Shown: positions 1,402-27,952 of the stretch, one piece after another
How positions within the stretch are numbered: position 1 is the stretch's first letter
Layout: every line of letters starts with the position of its first letter
DNA from: a virus
IMG/VR virus record: IMGVR_UViG_3300044833_000057
Location: 1 to 30,776 of that record
Strand: one strand, 5' to 3'
Length of the DNA stretch: 30,776 nt
Program-made: the position numbers and the translations under genes
The notes under the pieces: model-generated
Database searches by the model: none
Told to the model about the DNA's origin: nothing
The model's input: only the letters and a program-made list of their open reading frames with translations

Positions 1402-2631
1402 TCAGTAGCCGGACTGGACGACCATGCCGGTACCGGACAGAACGCCGATACCGACGGCGCGGCGGCCGGTGATCGCGGCCACGTTGCAGTGCATCATCAG
1501 GCGTACACCGAGGGTGCCGCTCATGGGTTCGCGTGCGATCACGGTCTGTGGTTCGCCCTCGGCGAGGATGAGGTCGGTTGGCCGAAGGCACACGATCTGG
1601 TCCTGGTTCGCGGCGGCGCCCTGCGTTGCGGGGATCGCGTCGTCGAGGAACACGGGCCAGCCCATGACGCCGGACACGGGGTCTGGGGTGGTGTCGTCGT
1701 TGCCGAGATAGAACTGGGTCGAGAGCCCGAACGGCCGGGTGCCGGTGTCTTCGGAGCCCTGCAGGTACGCCCACCTCGCGGTGCGCATCAGCCAGCACTC
1801 CGGCGGCCGGTTGCGCGCATCGCCGAGCTGGGCGGCGAGCTTGCTCATCGCGGTCCACATCAGCGAGCCGGTCGGGCTCGCGGACGTGTAGGAAACGGCG
1901 GTGATGCCTGTCACGTTCGTCACGCCGAGCAACGCATCGGTGCCGCCGCCGGTGAGCAGCTGCAATTCGAGGCTGGCGGCGTACGCTTCGGCGAGATCCA
2001 TGAAGATCGCCCAGTCAAGGTGCGCGCCGGGCGGCGACTGCTCGAGCAGCTGGAGTGCGACGTCGGCCGTCCCGGCGAGCGGCACGACGCTCGACGTTGC
2101 GCTGCTGTCCGTGAAGTTCTGCTTCTCGACGGCCGCGTCGTCGATCGCGGGCTGCACTGCAGTGCCGGTGTTCAGGACGGGCACGTTGATGGACGACACT
2201 CCGGCCGGCAGCTGGAAGCGCGGCATCAGGCCGCCGAGGACGCGTCCGACACGGTTCGCGGTCGCGAACAGCTCGTTCAGCCACAATGGTGCGGAGAAGT
2301 AGCCGCCGTACCCGTCGGTCCGGTTCGGCTCGACGCGGTATTCGAGCCCGCCGGCCCTCATCCGCTGCCACGCGCGGGCCTCACGCTCCTCCCGGACCTG
2401 GTCCATCTGCTCGCGGTGACGACGCAGCCGGTCATTGCCGCCGACACTCGTGATCCGCCCCGTCTCCTGGGCGAGCAGATCCCGGTAGTAGCTGTGCCGT
2501 CCCATCGGCGAGTAGACGAGCTCGTCGCCGGTGGCCGTGCGGGCGAGCAGGTCAAGGTGGCCGGCAACCCGGCGTGCGATCTCATCGGGGTCCTGTGCGA
2601 GTAGTTCGAGGTGCGTGGTTTCGATCGCCAT
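1402..2631 (-). CDS. HK97-type major capsid protein
   Basis: A 409-residue protein of normal length for an HK97-fold capsid precursor. The first ~110 residues are charged and helical, the expected delta domain removed by the prohead protease. The shell part has 'TDGYGGYF' near residue 107, 'SSINVPVL' and 'DVALQLLEQSP', followed by the long E-loop/spine region. ATG at 2631 lies one base after the stop of the protease gene, so the two are translationally coupled. The order terminase, portal, protease, capsid is the classical HK97 order. The adjacent gene at 1-1275 is its paralog. The product assembles the procapsid shell. The fold call is confident; which of the two subunits forms hexamers is unknown. 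Confidence 0.93.
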   Translation of the reverse strand: MAIETTHLELLAQDPDEIARRVAGHLDLLARTATGDELVYSPMGRHSYYRDLLAQETGRITSVGGNDRLRRHREQMDQVREEREARAWQRMRAGGLEYRVEPNRTDGYGGYFSAPLWLNELFATANRVGRVLGGLMPRFQLPAGVSSINVPVLNTGTAVQPAIDDAAVEKQNFTDSSATSSVVPLAGTADVALQLLEQSPPGAHLDWAIFMDLAEAYAASLELQLLTGGGTDALLGVTNVTGITAVSYTSASPTGSLMWTAMSKLAAQLGDARNRPPECWLMRTARWAYLQGSEDTGTRPFGLSTQFYLGNDDTTPDPVSGVMGWPVFLDDAIPATQGAAANQDQIVCLRPTDLILAEGEPQTVIAREPMSGTLGVRLMMHCNVAAITGRRAVGIGVLSGTGMVVQSGY

Positions 2632-2632
2632 G

Positions 2633-3613
2633 TCAGGCCGCCCTCAGCGCGGCGAGCTTCTGTTTCGCGGAGGTCGTGTGATCCGGCAGCAACAAGTCGG
2701 TGATACTTGCCGGCCCCGGAGAGTTCTCCTGCTCATCCTCGTCCGTGTCGATGTCGAGGAGCTCCGCGAGCGTGTTATCGTGCTCGACACCGTCGGTCAG
2801 GTAGTCGTGGATCGGCTGGAGCGCGTCCATGGTGGCCTGGGAGATCGTCTTGCCCGCCCGCAGCTCGACGAGCGACGCGACGAACGTTTCGCGCGTGAGA
2901 CCGCGCGTGGCCATGAGCGCGACAGCGGACCGCATCGTCACAAGGCCCCCGGTATGAGGGTTCGCTCCGTAGTTGACCGGACTGACGTCGCCCTTGTCGA
3001 GGTTGACCTCGGTGATCCACCGGCGGTCGTAGTCCTCGTTCCATTCCTGCCGGGTGACCCGGAACGCAAAGCTCATCTCGTCAAGTGCGCCGTCGTCGAT
3101 CGCGGCGCGGAGGATCTGCACGTCGCTGCGTTGCGGGTTCAGCGTCGCTTCCACATAGAGGCCGGTGAGATCCTCGTTCAGCTTGAGCGTACCCGGCTTG
3201 GTACGCGCCATCGTGACGCCACCATGGTTGAGGAGGAACGCGACGTCAGCGTTGTCGCCGATCGTCTTCTGGAACGCGCCGCGGACGATCGACTCGGTCC
3301 ACGGGCCCAGCCAGTCCTCCATCTCGTAGGTGTGCGACTCGTCGTCGTGGTCGGCACACGTCACTGACGCGTACCCGGTGAACAGGAGGTTCGAGCCGCC
3401 ACTGCCGTTCGGCACCTCGCGCAGTTCGAACCCGGTGACCGGCATGCGGCGTGTTTCGCGGCAGCCGCGCATGTCGTCGCGGGCTGTACGGAGCTCGTCC
3501 GTCGCGCGCGGCCGTGACTGGGCCTCGTCGACTAGAGCGGTGTCGTGGTCGCCGTGCGCGATCTCCGCAGCAGCGCGGGCGGCGTCCGACCAGAGGGATG
3601 TGTCATCAGCCAT
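2633..3613 (-). CDS. HK97-family prohead (maturation) protease
   Basis: A 326-residue serine protease of the U35/HK97 prohead class, which trims scaffold domains of the capsid protein inside the procapsid. The family's His sits in 'LLNHGG' (H130) and the nucleophile Ser in 'DEMSFAFRV' (S181). 'GRxx.P'-like charged segments and 'GDVSPVNYGANP' further downstream are typical. Residues 1-58 precede the usual 'TGFELREV' domain start, so an internal start at the methionine of 'RMPVTGFE' is possible. A clear AGGAGG ribosome site 5 bases before ATG 3613 favours the long form. The ~100-residue acidic tail after the core may be a scaffold segment. It lies between portal and capsid as expected. Confidence 0.9.
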   Translation of the reverse strand: MADDTSLWSDAARAAAEIAHGDHDTALVDEAQSRPRATDELRTARDDMRGCRETRRMPVTGFELREVPNGSGGSNLLFTGYASVTCADHDDESHTYEMEDWLGPWTESIVRGAFQKTIGDNADVAFLLNHGGVTMARTKPGTLKLNEDLTGLYVEATLNPQRSDVQILRAAIDDGALDEMSFAFRVTRQEWNEDYDRRWITEVNLDKGDVSPVNYGANPHTGGLVTMRSAVALMATRGLTRETFVASLVELRAGKTISQATMDALQPIHDYLTDGVEHDNTLAELLDIDTDEDEQENSPGPASITDLLLPDHTTSAKQKLAALRAA

Positions 3614-3630
3614 ACCGGCCTCCTACGTTG

Positions 3631-4860
3631 CTAATCGGACTTGTCGCCACCGGCGCCACCGGTCGCGGTGGGTTTGATCGGCGAGGAGTTGAACGGCTGA
3701 TCGAACGCTTCAAGCACGGTGGACTGGGCCGGGTCGGTGACCGGCGGCAGCCCCTCAACCTTCCGGATCTCGGCCGACGACATCGCCCCAATGACCCTGG
3801 CGATCTGCCAGGCGGACCAGCGCTGGAGGGTGTCGCCCCGGAGCCGCTGGCTGAGGTCGAACATCACGAACTGCCTTGGCGGCAGCCATGAGCTGAGGAG
3901 GTCCTCCCACCGCGACAGCCAGATCAGGAGCGTGTTCCGGACGTAGCCGAGCTCCTGCTGCTCAATGCCCGCACCCCAAGAAGTGTCCTTGTCGACCATG
4001 CCGAGCATGTGCGGCGGCACCCGGTAGATCCTGCCCGAGATCACGCTCTCCGACAGCTGCATCTGCTCGAGAAACTGGGCGTCCGCGAGATTCATCGTGA
4101 TCGGCTGAAACGTCGTCCCGCCGGTCAGGAACCCGGGCGTGAACATGCCGTTGATCCCCTGGTGCGACGAGTTCCACGAGTCCTTCATCGCCTTCAACTC
4201 GTTATCCGGAAGATCGCCCGGGACCAGGAACACGCCGTCGGGCCGGGCGCTGTTCGCGAAGAACGCGCCGCTCGCTAGGTCCTGCGCCCGGGCGAGTCCG
4301 AGCACGTTCCGCATGTACTCGATCGGGTTCAGCCCGACCAGGCCCTCGGGGACCTGGAGCGCCATCGCCCTCGTCACGTTGTCCGGCGGGACGAGCTCGT
4401 TCCAGTAGCGGACCTCGATCAGACCGCTGTCCCGGTTGCGCCTGACCGTCACATGGTCGGGGTGGACGAGCTTCACCTGGTCCGGGTAGAGCTTCTCATC
4501 ACGGCCGAGGATGTCGCCGTACAGGTTGCCGCGGAGCAGCATCGACACGGTGCCCTGCGTGATGAAGTCGCGCTGCGTGACCTCAGACCACGGCTGCGCG
4601 ATCACCGGCGCCGGGTCGATCTCGATAGCCGTATCGCGGCCCGTCGCACGGTACTGACGCAGCGGCAACGTCGCAATCGACGACGAGATCAGATCCACCG
4701 ATCCGAACACCGCAGCCAGCTGGAGCGCGCTCTGCTCGGTGACCGTCACGCCGGCGGTAGCCCAGCCCGCGCCCGGCGGCGGCGGTGCTGTCGAGCCCCA
4801 TGGGAGGTAGGGGTTCGCGCTCCGGGTCTCGAACCGGCCGTCGGCGGTACGGATCTCCAC
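3631..4860 (-). CDS. phage portal protein (HK97 family)
   Basis: A 409-residue portal subunit. Portals form the dodecameric ring at one capsid vertex through which DNA enters. Family traits include 'ALQLAAVFGSVDLISSSIATLPLRQY' (given here only as a landmark near residue 45, usual in HK97 portals), 'LLLRGNLYGDI'-type sequence near 100, 'EYMRNVLGLA' and the late motif 'RIYRVPPHMLGMVD' followed by a Trp/Glu-rich helix. The start is GTG at 4860, with AAAGGTG upstream. A start at 4867 in another frame was rejected. The protein is of usual length and complete. It follows TerL and a small Sm-like gene and precedes the protease. Confidence 0.9.
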   Translation of the reverse strand: MEIRTADGRFETRSANPYLPWGSTAPPPPGAGWATAGVTVTEQSALQLAAVFGSVDLISSSIATLPLRQYRATGRDTAIEIDPAPVIAQPWSEVTQRDFITQGTVSMLLRGNLYGDILGRDEKLYPDQVKLVHPDHVTVRRNRDSGLIEVRYWNELVPPDNVTRAMALQVPEGLVGLNPIEYMRNVLGLARAQDLASGAFFANSARPDGVFLVPGDLPDNELKAMKDSWNSSHQGINGMFTPGFLTGGTTFQPITMNLADAQFLEQMQLSESVISGRIYRVPPHMLGMVDKDTSWGAGIEQQELGYVRNTLLIWLSRWEDLLSSWLPPRQFVMFDLSQRLRGDTLQRWSAWQIARVIGAMSSAEIRKVEGLPPVTDPAQSTVLEAFDQPFNSSPIKPTATGGAGGDKSD

Positions 4861-4869
4861 GCCGCACCT

Positions 4870-5106
4870 TTACCGGATGTGCTGGACGAGAATGACCTGC
4901 CCCTTGGGGACAAACGTCTCGCCAGCCATCTCAGTCGCCGCAACACCACCCGGCTTCAACATCCGGCCGTGCCGCAACGCCACGCCCGCAACACCGTCGT
5001 CGCGATCCTTATAGACCCGGATCAGAATGCCCTCAATCGAGTCGGAATCCTTGAGATGCAGCAGGACCGTCCGGCCCTCCATCTGCTCGAGCCACGATCG
5101 CCGCAT
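4870..5106 (-). CDS. small Sm/LSm-like beta-barrel protein, function unknown
   Basis: A 78-residue protein starting at ATG 5106 behind a good GGAGGTGACGG ribosome site. The pattern 'GRTVLLHLKDSDSIEGIL.RVYKD' with 'FVPKGQVILVQHI' at the end resembles the strand arrangement of an Sm-like barrel: a short N-terminal helix, a bent beta-sheet with a Gly-rich turn, and a final 'I.V..I' strand. This fold is inferred from pattern only. It lies between TerL and portal, a position where phages often carry a small protein of unknown role. It could be a packaging accessory or a regulator of the head operon. Confidence 0.7.
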   Translation of the reverse strand: MRRSWLEQMEGRTVLLHLKDSDSIEGILIRVYKDRDDGVAGVALRHGRMLKPGGVAATEMAGETFVPKGQVILVQHIR

Positions 5107-5121
5107 CCGTCACCTCCCGCC

Positions 5122-6549
5122 CTACAGGTCGTTGAAGCTGACGAACCGGGACTTGGCCGGCTTTTTCTGCGCACCCCACAGCGCGAGCGTGATCGCGACC
5201 AGTGGAGAGATGTCGACGCCGGAGTTCTTCCGGCCCCACGCCCACAAGCCGTCGCCGACCGGGCGCTTCACCGCCCCATCGATCGCGGCCGTCACCTCTG
5301 GCGTCCCGAGATGGTGGACCTGCCGCTGGTCGACCGCGTCGAACAGGATGCCGCACGCCTGCCCATGCTCATTCGAGTTGACCGGGATCGCATCAACCCT
5401 CAGGCCCACAAGGTCCGGCAGCAGTGATCCTGCGGGGCCCGACGGGTCGCAGATCACCGCCGACGGATGGTGGCGTTCAACGAGTCGCGCGACCTCCTTC
5501 GCCACCCATCCGGTGCCGCGGCCCTGCCTGATGACCTCGACGTGAAACTTGCCGTCCTTGCGCCGGCCTGCAGCAGCGATCGACGATGCGGAACGGTCCG
5601 GCGTCACGTCAAACGACAGGCACACCGGGTCCATCGCCCGAGACTCGAAGTCAACGAGCTCGATCCACGCAGCCACCGGGATTACCGGATCGACCGACCC
5701 AGCCTTCCACCGGTTCAGGTAGGCGCGCTCAAACTCGTTCAGCGGCATCGACGCGAAATCAGCCCGAATAACCTCGACCGTCTGCGTGATCCCCAAAGCC
5801 GGCATACACGACCACCAGGTCTCCTCGGCGGCCGGGTCAGCATCCTCCGGTGGCGACCACTCGAAGTAGCAAACGCCCGACCGAGCGCCAGAAGCGGCCA
5901 GCTCCCGGCCGTGCTCGACCTTCCCCAACAGGTACGGCGACTCATCCGGCGTCCCGGCCGTCGAGATCACCCAGAACTGGGCGCCGCGGATCGTACTCAT
6001 CGCCGGCTTCAACGCCTGCTCGATACGCGCGTCCGGCTGAGCAAACGCCTCATCAACCGTCGCCTGGTGGATCGTGCCGCCATGGCCCGACTTTTTCACC
6101 GTCGCGACCAGCCCCGCATGCGACCCGTTCTTGAACTTCAACGCCTCATGGCCGTTTGTCATCCGCGGCTCAAACAAGCCGCGCCTCTTGAACGACGAAT
6201 CCTCCAGCGCCGGCAGCCAGTCATCGACCAGCTTCTTCCGAGCATCCGACCCTGTCTGCGCCGTATACCGGATGTTCTGCCGCGGCGCCGAAAGGGCGCG
6301 CGTGAAAATGTTCGCCAGCACCAGCGTCGTCTTCCCCGACTGGCGCGGCACCGTCAACCCCACCTCGCGGTACGCGAGCTTGCCGGTCGCCGGATCAACC
6401 TCCAGCGCCACATCCGCGACAAACTGCTGCCACGGCATGAAAGGCGTACCGAGCTCCGCCGCAACCCTGGCAGCCGCAGCCCCGTACGTCTTCCGGTCAG
6501 GCGACCGCGCTGTTGCCCACCTCGGCGAACAGGTCCGCGACGAACTCAT
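5122..6549 (-). CDS. terL: terminase large subunit
   Basis: The packaging motor ATPase and headful/cos nuclease. Walker A is 'PRQSGKTT' (about residues 68-75 from the chosen start) and Walker B is 'QATVDEAF'. The C-terminal RNase-H-like nuclease has Asp in 'LSFDVTPDRS', 'ICDPSGP' and 'SGVDISPL'. The length is about 475 residues, usual for the family. The frame is open to 6660, but the extra 37 residues are Arg/Ser-rich and are the antisense-like shadow of TerS. ATG 6549, preceded by GGAAG and overlapping the TerS end by 53 bases, is therefore taken as the start. It sits in the order HNH, TerS, TerL, portal. Confidence 0.92.
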   Translation of the reverse strand: MSSSRTCSPRWATARSPDRKTYGAAAARVAAELGTPFMPWQQFVADVALEVDPATGKLAYREVGLTVPRQSGKTTLVLANIFTRALSAPRQNIRYTAQTGSDARKKLVDDWLPALEDSSFKRRGLFEPRMTNGHEALKFKNGSHAGLVATVKKSGHGGTIHQATVDEAFAQPDARIEQALKPAMSTIRGAQFWVISTAGTPDESPYLLGKVEHGRELAASGARSGVCYFEWSPPEDADPAAEETWWSCMPALGITQTVEVIRADFASMPLNEFERAYLNRWKAGSVDPVIPVAAWIELVDFESRAMDPVCLSFDVTPDRSASSIAAAGRRKDGKFHVEVIRQGRGTGWVAKEVARLVERHHPSAVICDPSGPAGSLLPDLVGLRVDAIPVNSNEHGQACGILFDAVDQRQVHHLGTPEVTAAIDGAVKRPVGDGLWAWGRKNSGVDISPLVAITLALWGAQKKPAKSRFVSFNDL

Positions 6550-7301: not shown

Positions 7302-7466
7302 TCAGGCGGGCGGCCACCGAACGCGCTGCTTGCCATCGAGGAACAACAGCACGTACTTCCACGGAAGATCCGGATCGTCGTACTGCCATGTCTGGTAGAC
7401 GACGTCGCCTTCGTCGTTCGTGACCGTGACGGTCAGCCGTGGGCGTGTGGTGGGCTCGCTACTCAT
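7302..7466 (-). CDS. small hypothetical protein (54 aa)
   Basis: ATG 7466 to TGA 7302. The product has a beta-rich core with 'RLTVTVTNDEGDVVYQTW' followed by 'LPWKYVLLFLDGKQ', a balanced composition unlike the shadow frames here. No family is recognised. It is the first of the small genes leading into the packaging module and is coupled to the micro-ORF after it. Confidence 0.6.
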   Translation of the reverse strand: MSSEPTTRPRLTVTVTNDEGDVVYQTWQYDDPDLPWKYVLLFLDGKQRVRWPPA

Positions 7467-7508
7467 TCGGCCACCACACGTACCGAAGCTGGTATGGGCG
7501 AGTAGCGC

Positions 7509-7673
7509 TCACGACTGCTGCTCTTGAGGAACGGGAGTGTTGGGCGTTTCGAGTGCTCGCGCGAACCCGACCGTAGGCTTGCGGCCGCCGTCAGGAACGC
7601 CTTGCGGCACGTACAGGCCGGATGTGCTGCGACGCCAGTCGGGACGGTCGTCCTTCGTTGGTTCGTCGGTCAT
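7509..7673 (-). CDS. small hypothetical protein (54 aa)
   Basis: ATG 7673 overlaps the upstream stop (ATGA). The product is hydrophilic, Pro/Asp-rich and probably disordered (MTDEPTKDDRPDWRRS..., ending PVPQEQQS). No motif is recognised. Coupling to its neighbour is the main support. Confidence 0.55.
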   Translation of the reverse strand: MTDEPTKDDRPDWRRSTSGLYVPQGVPDGGRKPTVGFARALETPNTPVPQEQQS

Positions 7674-10226: not shown

Positions 10227-10297
10227 GGCGGGGTGGCCGAGTGGTTAGGCAGCGGTCTGCAAAACCGCGTAGGCGCGTTCAATTCGCGTCCCCGCCT
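10227..10297 (+). tRNA. tRNA-Cys (anticodon GCA)
   Basis: A complete cloverleaf in 71 bases. The acceptor stem GGCGGGG/CCCCGCC is followed by discriminator T. The D arm is GCC-GAGTGGTTA-GGC, and the anticodon arm is GCGGT-CTGCAAA-ACCGC with GCA at 34-36. The variable loop has 4 bases, and the T arm is GCGCG-TTCAATT-CGCGT with one G-U pair. No CCA is encoded. It lies on the strand opposite the early operon, just beyond the integrase, where tRNA-type attachment sites are often found. It may be a phage-carried tRNA or a captured host attB. Confidence 0.93.
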
Positions 10298-10418
10298 TCG
10301 TTCGCGCTCGCGAGCGTTCGCCGACCCACTGGCGCTGGTAGTTGCGCTTGTTCTCGGCGTTTCGTCCGCGGGGCTCGTGAAGCCGAGTCCCGGCGTTCTC
10401 TTTCTCGCGGGTAGTCAT
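10245..10418 (-). CDS. 57-aa basic ORF ending inside the antisense tRNA, probably truncated
   Basis: ATG 10418 overlaps the integrase stop (ATGA). The first ~40 residues ('MTTREKENAGTRLHEP', 'NAENKRNYQRQWVGERSRART') look like the basic N-terminal arm that precedes the metal fold in HNH/zinc proteins. The frame then enters the complement of the tRNA-Cys and stops. The remainder was likely lost when the tRNA was acquired. It may be expressed, but probably without activity. Confidence 0.5.
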   Translation of the reverse strand: MTTREKENAGTRLHEPRGRNAENKRNYQRQWVGERSRARTKAGTRIERAYAVLQTAA

Positions 10419-11353
10419 TGGGCGGATTGGGTCGTGGGGGAGGGGGTAGGCTCGGGGCTCGCTGTGGTACGGTCGTATCGGAGGCCGTGGACCGCGATCG
10501 TCAGCTGGTCTAGGGTGGCGTCGCCGACGTAGGCTTTGGTGGTTCGTACGTCGGCGTGGCCGAGCATCGCGCGGGCGAGTTCGATGCCGCCGTGACGGGC
10601 TACGTGGTCGCCGAACGCGTGCCGGAGAAGGTGGGGGTGGACGTGCGCGACGAGGCCGGCGCGCTTCCCTACGCGGCCGACGAGCTCCCAGAGCGGCTTT
10701 GGTGCCATCGGCTGGCCCGGGATCTTCCGGCGCTGCGTGTTGAACGGCGGATCCACCCACCGGGTAGCCGTCAGCACGTAGTCGAGGGCGCTTGAGGTGT
10801 CGAGGATGTCCGCGATGATCGGCTCGAGTTCTTCGATGATGGGGATGAACCGTTCGCGGCCGCCTTTTCCGATCTCGGCGGACACCCAGACGAACCCCGG
10901 GCGCAGGAGATGCTCGACACGCAGGCCCCGAAGCTCCGCGGAGCGCAGGCCGGCGCAGAGTCCGAGATGGATGGCCCGGGTTTCCTGTTCGGTTTCGCAG
11001 GCATTGAGCATCGCGATCGCCTCGCCCCTGGTGAGGCGGTAGACGCTCGTCGGTCGTGCTTTCGGACGGCGTGTCTGTTCGGCCGGGTTGTTTGCCCGTA
11101 TGCCTTCCTCTACGGTCCACCGGTAGAAGCTGACGAGTGCGGCGCGTCGTGCGCGCTGGGTGTTCGGGTGCGGCCAGCGCGTCAGGGTTCGTTTGACCTC
11201 GTCGCGGCCGATCGTTCTCGGGTCGCGGTTCCCGACATCCTGGGCGTGAAGGTCCAGCGTCGCCCGGTAGGACCGGTCGGTCGCCTCAGAATTGATCCGG
11301 CCGGCCTGCCGCTGGTCGGCGACGTACAGGTCGATCGCTTCGCGGAAGGTCAT
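10415..11353 (-). CDS. int: tyrosine recombinase / integrase
   Basis: A 312-residue protein. The N-terminal SAM-like core-binding domain covers about residues 1-95 and the catalytic domain about 105-290. Catalytic residues visible are R137 in 'AGLRSAELRG', K163 in 'GKGGRER', H241 and R244 in 'HPHLLRH', H266 in 'LGHADV' and nucleophile Y275 in 'TTKAYV'. The set is complete, so it should be active in site-specific recombination (integration/excision or dimer resolution). It has no arm-binding extension and looks XerC/D-like. It is coupled (ATGA) to RusA upstream, and a tRNA-Cys lies ~120 bases past its end. Integrases usually sit by the immunity region, so this placement within the early operon is less common. 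Confidence 0.92.
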   Translation of the reverse strand: MTFREAIDLYVADQRQAGRINSEATDRSYRATLDLHAQDVGNRDPRTIGRDEVKRTLTRWPHPNTQRARRAALVSFYRWTVEEGIRANNPAEQTRRPKARPTSVYRLTRGEAIAMLNACETEQETRAIHLGLCAGLRSAELRGLRVEHLLRPGFVWVSAEIGKGGRERFIPIIEELEPIIADILDTSSALDYVLTATRWVDPPFNTQRRKIPGQPMAPKPLWELVGRVGKRAGLVAHVHPHLLRHAFGDHVARHGGIELARAMLGHADVRTTKAYVGDATLDQLTIAVHGLRYDRTTASPEPTPSPTTQSAQ

Positions 11354-20707: not shown

Positions 20708-20913
20708 GCCACACGCTCCGCAGCCAAAACCGCCAGCAGACGCGTCTCGGTCTGCTTCCTCGCCGCCCGCAACGTGCGTTCCGCGAACGGCCGTTCCAAC
20801 GAGCCAGCAGGAAGATTGTCAAGCATCTCCTGGCAGTACGTGGTGAACGACTCGCACGACCGGAGGCTGCTACGGAGAGCCTCAAGGGGGACCGACTCGG
20901 AATAAAGGGTCAT
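20704..20913 (-). CDS. small helical protein (69 aa)
   Basis: ATG 20913 overlaps the stop of the pentapeptide protein. The sequence is helical with '[35 protein letters not shown]' and a basic helix '[27 protein letters not shown]'. No family is recognised. It is coupled to ERF. Confidence 0.6.
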
Positions 20914-21635
20914 GACGCGCGCACCCACAAGCCCGAGTCGCCCAACTTCCAACCATCAGGCATCCCACTAGCGGGGAGGCCGCGGGCACCAGAGAACTCG
21001 GCGTAGCGCAGGTCGGCGGAGCTCAGGACGGCGGAGCGCAGGTCGGCGTAGCGCAGGTCGGCGTAGCGCAGGTCGGCGGAGCTCAGGTCGGCGGAGCGCA
21101 GGTCGGCGTAGCTCAGGTCGGCGGAGCTCAGGACGGCGGAGCGCAGGTCGGCGTAGCTCAGGACGGCGTAGCGCAGGACGGCGGAGCGCAGGTCGGCGTA
21201 GCGCAGGTCGGCGTAGCTCAGGACGGCGTAGCGCAGGACGGGCCTCTCCTTAGTGATCTTCCACGCCGCGATCCGCCCGAGCGCCCGGAGTGTCCGGGCG
21301 TGCTGCGTGATCTCCTCGTCCTTACTCGTCAGTGTGAGCGCCCAGGCGAGTACCGGGCCGGGAACCCACCACGTGTCGAGTACGCCTTCCTGGCCGGCGC
21401 GGACAAGCTCAGCCCGCGTCTCCGGGGTTGCTGTCTTGGTGTCGTTCGCGGCGATCACCCAGTCAGCGATCTGCGGGTGCGCGCACACCGGATGGTCCGT
21501 CCACTCCTGTCCGGCGATCCAGGCGAGGAGGGTCATGGCGCAGGCTTTCCGGTCGGTTTCGCTGCCGCTGCCGGCGATGAGTTCGAACTGGTTGAGGGCC
21601 TCGTCGACGGTGTGAGTGTTCGAAGGAGGGGTCAT
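20910..21635 (-). CDS. pentapeptide-repeat protein with helical N-terminal domain
   Basis: 241 residues from ATG 21635 (ATGA); the frame to 21929 adds Arg-rich shadow. Residues 1-~125 are helical ('[27 protein letters not shown]', '[20 protein letters not shown]', '[18 protein letters not shown]'). Residues ~130-215 are ~16 pentapeptides of the A(D/V)L(R/S)(Y/S) type, forming a right-handed quadrilateral beta-helix. The end is '[15 protein letters not shown]'. Known members such as Qnr/MfpA mimic DNA and bind gyrase, but many have no known role. It could be a DNA-mimic effector. Repeats are nearly identical at DNA level. Confidence 0.85.
20995..21240. repeat. tandem 15-bp repeat array encoding the pentapeptides
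   Basis: About sixteen 15-base units, each close to GCGKAGCKCAGGWCG on the plus strand, differ only at a few positions (T/G, G/T, T/A). The units are in frame with the pentapeptide repeats. The near identity points to recent expansion by slippage or unequal recombination, so repeat number likely varies among related phages. Confidence 0.9.
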
Positions 21636-22502: not shown

Positions 22503-22870
22503 GCGGCGCGCTCCAGTTCGGCGCGAAGCTGATCTGCCACCATCCGATCGGCCGGCCATACGACCGATGCGACCGGCGCGAGATAGCGACGCCGATGGTC
22601 CTCGGCGAACCGGTCCGTTGCGACGCGATTCGGCGCGACGCCGGAACTCTGGTGCGCGTTACGCTCGGGGCGTAGGTTCGCAATCAGATGGGCCTCGCGC
22701 GCAAAGGCCGTGTCGCGGTCAAGCGGCCCCTCCGCGGAGATGCTGGCGCCCTCCCATCCCAGTATCCAAGCGTGCGACTTCAGCCGGGACGCAAGGTGCG
22801 ACGTGCAGCCCACGTAGACGACGCGGGTGCCCTGCTCGACCCAGACGAAATAAACGAAGTGGTCGGTCAC
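22499..22870 (-). CDS. GIY-YIG domain nuclease
   Basis: A 123-residue protein. The variant GIY-YIG core is 'VYFVWVEQGTRVVYVGCTSHLASRLKSH', with the second element 'VYVG', the Arg of 'SRLKSH' and the metal-binding Glu in 'FAREAHLIANLRPERN'. It is a stand-alone domain with a basic C-terminal extension. Such small enzymes cut DNA in homing, repair or host-genome attack. It is the second gene of the leftward operon. GTG 22870 overlaps the upstream stop. Confidence 0.88.
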   Translation of the reverse strand: MTDHFVYFVWVEQGTRVVYVGCTSHLASRLKSHAWILGWEGASISAEGPLDRDTAFAREAHLIANLRPERNAHQSSGVAPNRVATDRFAEDHRRRYLAPVASVVWPADRMVADQLRAELERAA

Positions 22871-23058
22871 GCCGCGGCCTTGTCGCGCTCGGCGTCGACC
22901 TCGGCGATGTAGCCGCGGATGGCCTGACGAACCTCAGCCGCGAGCGCGCGGTCGTTCTGGCGGGCGATACGCCGCAGGGCGTCCATGAGACTGGACGGCA
23001 CGCGGGCCGAGATCTGCTCTTCGCGGACCTCAATCTCGTCCTTGCAGTTCGCCTCCAT
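22867..23058 (-). CDS. ribbon-helix-helix (Arc/CopG) regulator
   Basis: 63 residues from ATG 23058: 'EIEVREEQISARVPSSLMDALRRIARQNDRALAAEVRQAIRGYIAEVDAERDK'-type RHH (strand about residues 11-20, helices 22-33 and 38-52). Dimers would bind short palindromes. It is the first gene of the long leftward operon and diverges from the XRE repressor. Its mRNA is predicted to begin at or next to the ATG, and no ribosome site exists. It could be the Cro-like partner of the switch. Confidence 0.85.
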   Translation of the reverse strand: MEANCKDEIEVREEQISARVPSSLMDALRRIARQNDRALAAEVRQAIRGYIAEVDAERDKAAA

Positions 23059-23093
23059 GTCGCGTACTGTACACGAACCAATGACGAAGTCAA
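23042..23093. promoter_or_regulatory. overlapping divergent promoters of the lysogeny switch
   Basis: Leftward: TTGACT (23093-23088), 16-base spacer, TACAGT (23071-23066), predicted start ~23059, next to ATG 23058. Rightward: TTGCAG (23042-23047), 17-base spacer, TACTGT (23065-23070), predicted start ~23077-23081, next to ATG 23081. Both -10 boxes occupy the same bases, so polymerase can bind only one promoter at a time. GTAC-containing half-sites (GTACTGTAC at 23064-23072; GTACGT at 23110, 23121, 23148) are operator candidates. Confidence 0.65.
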
Positions 23094-23557
23094 GTGTCGC
23101 GTTCCCGCAGTACGTGCCTGGTACGTCGCGCCAACCCCGCAACGTGGGTACGTTCTTCGCCCAGATGGAGGCCGCTGAACTTCAGCGCCGTCGCAAGGCG
23201 ATGCGCGACGAACGAGGGATGACTCAGCCCGAGGTCGCCCTAGCGATTGGCGTCGGTCTGCGCGCCTACCAGAAGTGGGAGGCTGGCGGCGGAATGAAGG
23301 CCGCGAACCGCCGCAAGCTATCGGCGCTCTGGAAGGTGCCGATCGCGGAGCTACGAAACGACGAGGCGGACTACGTCTTCGCCTCGGCAGCCGACGTGCG
23401 ACGCATGGAGCGTAAGCTCGACGCGTTCCTCACGGTCGCGGTGCGGGGACTTCAAGGAGCAGAGGCCGCCCTAGCGCTCGAGCAAGCCTTGGCAGAAGCC
23501 GAAGAAGGATCGGACGAGCAGGATCGTCCGGAGGAATCAGAGGAAGGCGATCTCTGA
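23081..23557 (+). CDS. XRE-family (Cro/CI-type) repressor
   Basis: 158 residues from ATG 23081, predicted leaderless; ATG 23165 (130 residues) is the alternative, but neither has a ribosome site. The HTH lies at about residues 40-95: 'RRKAMRDERGMTQPEVALAIGVGLRAYQKWEAGGGMKAANRRKLSALWKVP', a textbook XRE domain. The C-terminal part is a long helix ('DVRRMERKLDAFLTVAVRGLQGAEAALALEQAL') and a very acidic tail, suggesting a coiled-coil dimer rather than a RecA-cleavable LexA-like domain. It is the only sizeable rightward gene. It most likely represses the leftward early promoter and maintains lysogeny. Confidence 0.87.
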   Translation: MTKSSVAFPQYVPGTSRQPRNVGTFFAQMEAAELQRRRKAMRDERGMTQPEVALAIGVGLRAYQKWEAGGGMKAANRRKLSALWKVPIAELRNDEADYVFASAADVRRMERKLDAFLTVAVRGLQGAEAALALEQALAEAEEGSDEQDRPEESEEGDL

Positions 23558-26685: not shown

Positions 26686-26900
26686 GGCCGGCTGTGATAG
26701 TCGCGGGCTTCCTGCCACGTCTCGCTCGTCTCGCCGCGAGCACAGACGGCCGCGAGCACGGAGGCCCACTCGCCCTCGGGCACAACGATCGACGCTACGA
26801 AGTCATCGCCAGCCCCCTTCGCTGGGCGTCGAAACTCGATGGCGACGTCGCCCTTGTAGTTGCGCTCGAAGCTGAATCCGTCGCGTAGATGGAACATCAT
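26682..26900 (-). CDS. small hypothetical protein (72 aa)
   Basis: ATG 26900 overlaps the phosphoesterase stop. 'FHLRDGFSFERNYKGDVAIEFRRP' forms a beta-hairpin, and 'DDFVASIVVPEGEWASVLAAVCARGETSETWQEARDYH' a strand and helix. It is similar in shape to small phage proteins in lysis or tail regions. No function is known. Confidence 0.65.
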   Translation of the reverse strand: MMFHLRDGFSFERNYKGDVAIEFRRPAKGAGDDFVASIVVPEGEWASVLAAVCARGETSETWQEARDYHSRP

Positions 26901-27952
26901 GCGGTGAACGTGTAGGCGCCCAGGCGGACCGTCCCATCGTGGGCGACCTGCACGTAGTCGCCCACAATCTTCCCGCCAGTGACGGTCAGCCTCAGATAGC
27001 CCCAGCCCGACGCGTCCCCGTAGTCGAACGTCACGCCAGGCACGACCTCCATGCCCGGGGTGGCATCCCCCGCGAGCGCATGCAGATTCCGGTAGCCGGA
27101 GTTCCCGATCACCACATACTTGACCTTCGTGCCGTCCCCGACCTCCTCCGTGAAAAATTGCGCGTCGTGAACATGACCTGAAAGGATGAGCGCCGGCCAG
27201 CGGACGGCCTGCTGGAACGCCCCCGCGAGCGCGTCTCCCATCCCCTTCGACCCGCCGTGATGGGCATCAACAGAAAGGGGCGGGTGATGCAACTGGACGA
27301 TCAGGGGACGGTCCCTTGGCGCGGCCGCAACCTCCTGAGTGAGCCACGCGACCTGCGACGCCGCAAGCCGGCCACCTGACGGGACGTTCGACCAGACACC
27401 AACGATCGTCACCGCCTCCAGCTGGAGCGTCCAGTCGCAGTACGGCTGCGTCTGCGTGTGGCGGCCGAACTCGAGCTCCGGATCACCAGGGGGTGCCGCG
27501 GGGCTCGGGGTGCACAGGTTCGCCATCCACGACGGGATCCCCGAGCCCGATACGACCGGGTTCGGATCACCGTCATGGTTCCCAGCTATGCCGACGAACG
27601 GGACCGGCACGTGCGTGTACGGCGAATAGAACTGGGGCATCCACTGGTCGGGGTCCGAGTCGTAGTAGCACCAGTCACCGACAGAGTTGACGAACGAGAT
27701 CCCGCCCGCGGCGACCTCCAACGCGAGCGCCGCGGCCACATGGTCCTGTGGGACCGGGTTCTCGATGCCGCCGTGATCACCGATCACCAGGAACGACAGC
27801 GTGGCGCCCGGATCCTTGATCCCGACCTGCTCGCCGGTCGCCCGTCCCGGCGTTCCTGGGGGGAGCGGCTGGGTGATGCCGGGCGGGAATGATTTCTGGA
27901 GCTGGTCAGCCGCCCGGACGGTGGACGGCGCGGGGAGACCGACACGCCGCAT
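26897..27952 (-). CDS. calcineurin-like metallophosphoesterase
   Basis: 351 residues from ATG 27952, overlapping the upstream stop; the frame to 28090 is shadow. Metal-binding motifs are in order: 'FLVIGDHGG' (D59, H/G variant of D-x-H), 'SVGDWCYYDSD' (D93), 'GIAGNHDGDP' (N125, H126), 'IVQLHHPPLS' and 'LSGHVHDAQFF'. This is the full set of a purple-acid-phosphatase-type enzyme. A ~90-residue beta domain follows. Between tail-spike and lysis genes it may be a virion or secreted enzyme attacking surface phosphates, such as teichoic-type or lipid phosphates, but the substrate is unknown. Confidence 0.88.
   Translation of the reverse strand: MRRVGLPAPSTVRAADQLQKSFPPGITQPLPPGTPGRATGEQVGIKDPGATLSFLVIGDHGGIENPVPQDHVAAALALEVAAGGISFVNSVGDWCYYDSDPDQWMPQFYSPYTHVPVPFVGIAGNHDGDPNPVVSGSGIPSWMANLCTPSPAAPPGDPELEFGRHTQTQPYCDWTLQLEAVTIVGVWSNVPSGGRLAASQVAWLTQEVAAAPRDRPLIVQLHHPPLSVDAHHGGSKGMGDALAGAFQQAVRWPALILSGHVHDAQFFTEEVGDGTKVKYVVIGNSGYRNLHALAGDATPGMEVVPGVTFDYGDASGWGYLRLTVTGGKIVGDYVQVAHDGTVRLGAYTFTA

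Follow-up and report, generated by a model that had tools for sequence, protein, structure and literature searches.

How are two divergent regulator genes transcribed when their start codons lie only about 22-23 bp apart? This question is raised by the virus record IMGVR_UViG_3300044833_000057 of IMG/VR, which was taken whole (30,776 bases, referred to here as the window; 62-69% GC per kilobase, 66% overall). Our preferred answer, to which we assign a probability of roughly 0.6, is that a temperate phage has its immunity switch at this locus and that one bidirectional promoter, with the near-symmetric core TACTGTA, serves both regulators.

Gene layout, probable host, and the two regulators

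Genes were called by codon bias and then assigned by family searches (Pfam, PHROG). The minus strand was found to carry the portal, protease, capsid, and terminase genes (1402-6438), a tyrosine integrase gene (10415-11353), and early genes that include RusA, DnaB, and Erf and extend to approximately 22.9 kb. Among rightward genes, XRE alone combined a good codon score with a family match; the other confident calls were all leftward, and a few low-scoring rightward frames also listed by gene calling are probably spurious. Terminase matches in annotated phages were mostly to actinophages (best, 35% identity), and 12 of the 13 genome loci with related terminases were labelled as Actinomycetota lineages, the remaining one being a Pirellulales assembly. 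Because the terminase relatives are nearly all actinobacterial, the host is probably an actinobacterium. The record is probably that of a temperate phage, with the layout of a lysogeny switch in its XRE/RHH region.

Elsewhere in the window, a complete tRNA-Cys(gca) gene was detected at 10227-10297 (+), approximately 118 bp past the 3' end of the integrase gene. It is a candidate for tRNA-dependent lysogeny, for which the accessible part of PMC10865867 names the isotypes Lys, Ile2, and Leu. A pentapeptide-repeat protein (20910-21635, minus strand; Pfam E=6.7e-29) is encoded in the early region downstream of the first genes of the switch operon, and a calcineurin-like metallophosphoesterase (Pfam E=1.2e-9) at 26897-27952 (-).

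The leftward regulator gene (22867..23058, minus strand) starts at ATG 23058, encodes a probable Arc-like ribbon-helix-helix (RHH) protein of 63 aa, and overlaps the next leftward gene (GTG 22870) by 4 bp. It is the first gene of the leftward early operon and heads a series that includes GIY-YIG-like, Erf, DnaB, and integrase genes. The protein matched Pfam RHH_1 under the curated cut-off (E=0.0017), the PHROG family 'Arc-like repressor' (E=0.0075), and PDB chain 1u9p, pArc (E=5.9e-4). The rightward gene (23081..23557, plus strand) encodes an XRE/HTH_3 regulator, a putative lysogeny repressor, of 158 aa if read from ATG 23081. Its residues 39-70 matched HTH_3 above the cut-off (E=2.7e-6), and its best matches in PHROG were phage transcription regulators. 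GTG 23144 and ATG 23165 (130 aa) are among its other in-frame starts.

Promoter elements and the start of the XRE gene

The preliminary description had placed a promoter TTGACT-N16-TACAGT leftward and a promoter TTGCAG-N17-TACTGT rightward on the same -10 bases, and all of these letters and distances hold. The predicted leftward promoter (23066..23093, minus strand) has its -35 at 23093-23088 and its -10 at 23071-23066, 7 nt from the RHH start codon, and of all sites in the record it matches the sigma-70 consensus best. The predicted rightward promoter (23042..23070, plus strand) has its -35 at 23042-23047, inside the RHH gene, and its -10 at 23065-23070. It is the weaker match to the E. coli consensus, its -10 agreeing with TATAAT at only 3 of 6 positions, and the distance to ATG 23081 is 10 nt, compared with 6-8 nt in most relatives; both points weigh against a shared promoter. 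The overlap of the two elements was confirmed within TACTGTA (23065..23071, both strands), a 7-bp near-palindrome in which the opposing -10s are offset by one base and have five bases in common. Positions 23066 and 23070 serve reciprocally as the -11A and -7T of both -10s, which is the 18-bp register of bidirectional promoters (PMC10268837).

RNA starts were predicted with the usual seven bases between the -10 and the start. The leftward RNA would begin at 23059, or, with a purine, at 23058, the A of the RHH start codon, and the rightward RNA at 23076-23078, leaving a leader of approximately 3-5 nt before ATG 23081. As had been described, neither gene has a ribosome site: a Shine-Dalgarno sequence is absent from the RHH and XRE starts, whose duplex energies (+0.6 and +0.1 kcal/mol, respectively) are among the weakest of the approximately 52 called starts. 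Leaderless mRNAs are indeed common in actinobacteria, where more than 20% of genes are leaderless with TANNNT signals (PMC3160421). From the first T of TANNNT to the start codon, the leaderless type measures approximately 12 bp (PMC3160421), compared with 13 bp for RHH and, at the long end, 16 bp for XRE from ATG 23081. The earlier view that both messages are leaderless is therefore retained for RHH, which is predicted to fit leaderless transcription with its 7-nt gap, and only approximately for XRE at 23081, with its 10-nt gap and predicted short leader.

For the XRE start, placed at 23081 in the preliminary description, the data are divided. The codon score of 23081-23164 was 3.3, a value reached by 15% of wrong-frame stretches, with 3% of true gene beginnings scoring as low. 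The codon bias of residues 1-28 was ambiguous, and residues 1-29 had a pLDDT below 50 in a low-confidence single-sequence structure model. The coding bias suits ATG 23165 at least as well, and a second possible -10, TACGTT (23149..23154, plus strand), lies 10 nt upstream of that codon. A possible but rather unlikely alternative is that only the leftward promoter of the core is real and that XRE is read from ATG 23165 with a separate promoter, TACGTT for example, so that the two promoters are divergent and unshared. The coding signal of XRE is clear only from approximately 23153, and from ATG 23165 the HTH would begin near residue 11, as is usual for XRE-type regulators; other actinophage switches, moreover, have two separate promoters. 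However, a search for a -35 of the TTG[AC] pattern for TACGTT found none, whereas TTGCAG-N17-TACTGT has a -35 of the kind seen at many genes of actinophage switches, and approximately 12-25 residues precede the HTH in related leaderless regulators. XRE may start at 23081 or at 23165.

Candidate operators and the proposed switch mechanism

GTAC repeats near the promoters had also been pointed out. Five copies, at 23064, 23069, 23110, 23121, and 23148 (23064..23151, both strands), are candidate operators; the last three read GTACGT. Such a cluster of five within 88 nt was reached in 0 of 200 shuffles, two of the five belonging to the -10 palindrome, and GTACGT was not enriched record-wide (12 occurrences, compared with 9 for the reversed control). 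Three GTACGT also occur at 7351, 7478, and 7609 (-), spaced 127-131 bp apart, in a region of small leftward frames (7351-7614). It is plausible that RHH and XRE act on the GTAC repeats of the switch.

A second explanation, which we consider unlikely, is that GTACTGTAC is first of all an operator, at which one bound regulator silences both directions, and that the symmetry of the -10 is a by-product of a palindromic site lying over the leftward promoter. Repressors usually have palindromic sites overlapping -10s, the GTAC cluster is denser than in shuffles, and the GTACGT repeats 11 bp apart (23110, 23121) would suit an RHH tetramer, this spacing being presumably comparable to that of Arc-type half-sites. 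Against this, the rightward direction has a -35 of its own at 17-bp spacing, and repression in both directions alone would not keep lysogeny without a further XRE promoter. An operator at this site is compatible with a shared bidirectional promoter, and the two are not exclusive.

The preliminary description had further held that the choice of direction by polymerase gives bistability by itself, and on this point the evidence is unfavorable. In a 2026 study of five E. coli bidirectional promoters, transcription at its basal level was too low for polymerases to compete; competition appeared once one direction was strengthened, and this interference lowered the noise between cells (PMC12825309). 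In our simulation, whose parameters were illustrative, protein levels from two genes on an exclusive shared promoter stayed unimodal in weak and strong regimes alike as long as feedback was left out, and one-sided states appeared only once mutual repression was added. Bistability from exclusive binding alone was rejected accordingly; because exclusive binding without feedback is unimodal and interference lowers noise, bistability should come from XRE/RHH feedback.

The sequence itself shows the promoter letters with their register and rarity, the lack of Shine-Dalgarno sites, the divergent layout, and the clustering of GTAC. For the shared promoter, we infer from the DNA that both directions fire, where the two RNAs and the XRE protein start, which protein binds where, and that the locus governs lysis and lysogeny. 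Leftward, the core would make a leaderless (or one-nucleotide-leader) mRNA that covers the Arc-like RHH gene and the rest of the early operon. The rightward product would be the XRE repressor mRNA, with the short leader if translation begins at 23081. Because the core could not hold two polymerases simultaneously, heavy transcription one way would reduce transcription the other way. What makes the lytic or lysogenic state last would be protein feedback, through binding of XRE and RHH to the GTAC sites or close to them. Any protein sitting on the shared core would shut off transcription both ways, and lysogeny would therefore depend on binding that leaves rightward transcription free or else on another promoter for XRE. 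It is doubtful, though conceivable, that the orientation in which polymerase docks on the one symmetric -10 is itself the control point, with XRE and RHH steering it and not blocking separate promoters. If this were true, the locus would be among the smallest lysis-lysogeny control elements known.

We also regard it as improbable that the pair is not the lysogeny switch at all, the RHH protein being of an antitoxin or partition type, the XRE protein an accessory regulator, and the immunity repressor encoded elsewhere. The RHH protein does match a FitA-like antitoxin (E=0.0035) and the partition family phrog_2685 (E=3.1e-5), the integrase gene is approximately 12 kb away, and the repressor function of XRE is putative. 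On the other side, XRE is the only confident rightward gene and diverges from an operon with Erf and DnaB, and phage transcription regulators are its closest PHROG relatives.

The promoter letters stand out from chance. A both-strand sigma-70 scan of the record gave a single 9/12 match, the leftward site, and one other site at 8/12; the leftward site alone lies at leaderless distance. TANNNTA occurs once in the 30,776 bp, at 23065, compared with a mean of 7.1 in dinucleotide shuffles, and TANNNT at a gap of 4-11 nt precedes 1 of the 50 other called gene starts. The relaxed pattern TTG[AC]NN-N15-19-TANNN[TC]-N5-10-[AG]TG, set after the data had been seen, hits one further place besides the two switch starts, the overlapping start codons 17261/17263. 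That TA-containing hexamers merely happened to fall between two divergent genes is very improbable: the rightward consensus match is weak and, with no homologous switch found, conservation gives no check, but TANNNTA and leaderless-distance promoters are rare in the record, both occur at a divergent regulator pair, and both starts are without a Shine-Dalgarno sequence.

Other actinophage switches and known systems

No homologues of XRE, RHH, or the switch DNA were found in phages, viral contigs, and genome contigs, none of the GIY-YIG-like protein in phages, and none of XRE or RHH in the 13 genomes with related terminases. The pattern CAT-N5-GTACWGTAC-N8-ATG matched 71 stretches in viral contigs; 13 had open frames both ways, and 0 of these 13 encoded an XRE/RHH pair. 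Phages and prophages whose terminase or Erf genes are related have other XRE-type pairs at the switch, with start codons 84-164 bp apart. Several of these pairs have TANNNT 6-10 nt before both starts (L069, 3870/3966; L058, 3882/3966; L055, 4448 and its partner; L072, 1884/1794) or before a single start (L029, L073, L050), counts that are only suggestive because starts were picked among alternatives. In 610 kb of related sequence, one other TANNNTA site leaderless both ways (L060) came up and was rejected, its leftward frame not being gene-like. L058, a Rarobacter prophage region, has a divergent XRE-type pair (3882, -; 3966, +) with TACGTT at gap 6 before both starts and a consensus TTGACA -35 at 17 bp for the leftward start. 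By its letters, it would serve well as a model of a switch that is leaderless on both sides and keeps its two promoters apart.

A cleaner sample was provided by 16 annotated actinophage switches (L145-L160) from Gordonia, Mycobacterium, and Arthrobacter phages, for which the depositors' start codons were used and which were chosen by similarity to the XRE proteins of two relatives. TANNNT at a gap of 5-10 nt preceded 12 of 32 regulator starts compared with 0 of 81 other starts (Fisher p = 4.6e-8), where the control starts lie mostly inside operons, needing no promoter of their own, and the relatedness of several of the phages makes the p value overstate independence. TTGC-type -35s with spacers of 17-19 (17-18 at the rightward genes), like TTGCAG here, were found upstream of one leftward repressor and, among the 16 rightward regulator genes, upstream of 10, a pattern noticed after the data had been seen. 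The start codons of these switches are 78-311 bp apart, compared with 23 here, and a single -10 serving both starts was not found in the other actinophage switches examined. Leaderless-type TANNNT at actinophage switch regulators, and TTGC-type -35s at the rightward ones, may possibly be general. The occurrence of leaderless-type -10s before many of these regulators, and rarely elsewhere, suggests that leaderless translation is frequent among them, a point that could be relevant to starvation conditions and to the annotation of start codons.

The layout at the present locus is of the cI/cro type, in that divergent XRE (+) and RHH (-) genes flank a control region and RHH heads the early genes. 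The immI region of P22, with Arc and Mnt, would be similar in that RHH regulators of the Arc kind act at divergent promoters that overlap closely; P22 has two RHH proteins and an antirepressor, whereas the partner here is an XRE protein. In phage PY54, the divergent cI and cro mRNAs of the switch were mapped by RACE as leaderless, and lambda cI is cited as leaderless too (PMC4488713). PY54 likewise pairs a repressor with a divergent lytic regulator; in contrast, an operator lies between its two separate promoters, the lytic regulator is Cro and not RHH, and its host group is different. The repressor/Cro-type switches of actinophages (e.g., BPs; PMC4557955) also have divergent DNA-binding regulators, many starts with leaderless-type TANNNT, and TTGC-type -35s, but no -10 common to both starts. 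For M. tuberculosis, the accessible part of PMC3898074 classes a transcript as leaderless when it begins no more than 5 bp from the start codon. It describes divergent promoters in close juxtaposition as common, with TANNNT -10s; one case is a regulator and its divergent target, both of whose mRNAs are leaderless. These are chromosomal genes and not a phage switch, and that part of the source reports no shared -10.

In promoter structure, the locus resembles the bidirectional promoters described by Warman, Grainger, and colleagues, in which -10s on opposite strands have coinciding -7 and -11 positions (PMC10268837). The phage core has the same overlapping opposite-strand -10s, the same reciprocal -7T/-11A, and predicted starts approximately 18 bp apart (PMC12825309, PMC10268837). 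It differs from them in leading each way almost directly into the start codon of an opposing regulator, and its two-way activity is predicted. If both directions fire, nature would here have pared a phage switch down to a single promoter core, and the locus would be a clean system for asking whether polymerase competition, recently measured at chromosomal promoters of E. coli, contributes to a developmental decision. The parts are known from these systems; what is new, and makes the combination an unusual one, is that the promoters of the two regulators would coincide on a single symmetric -10, with approximately 22 bp between the start codons.
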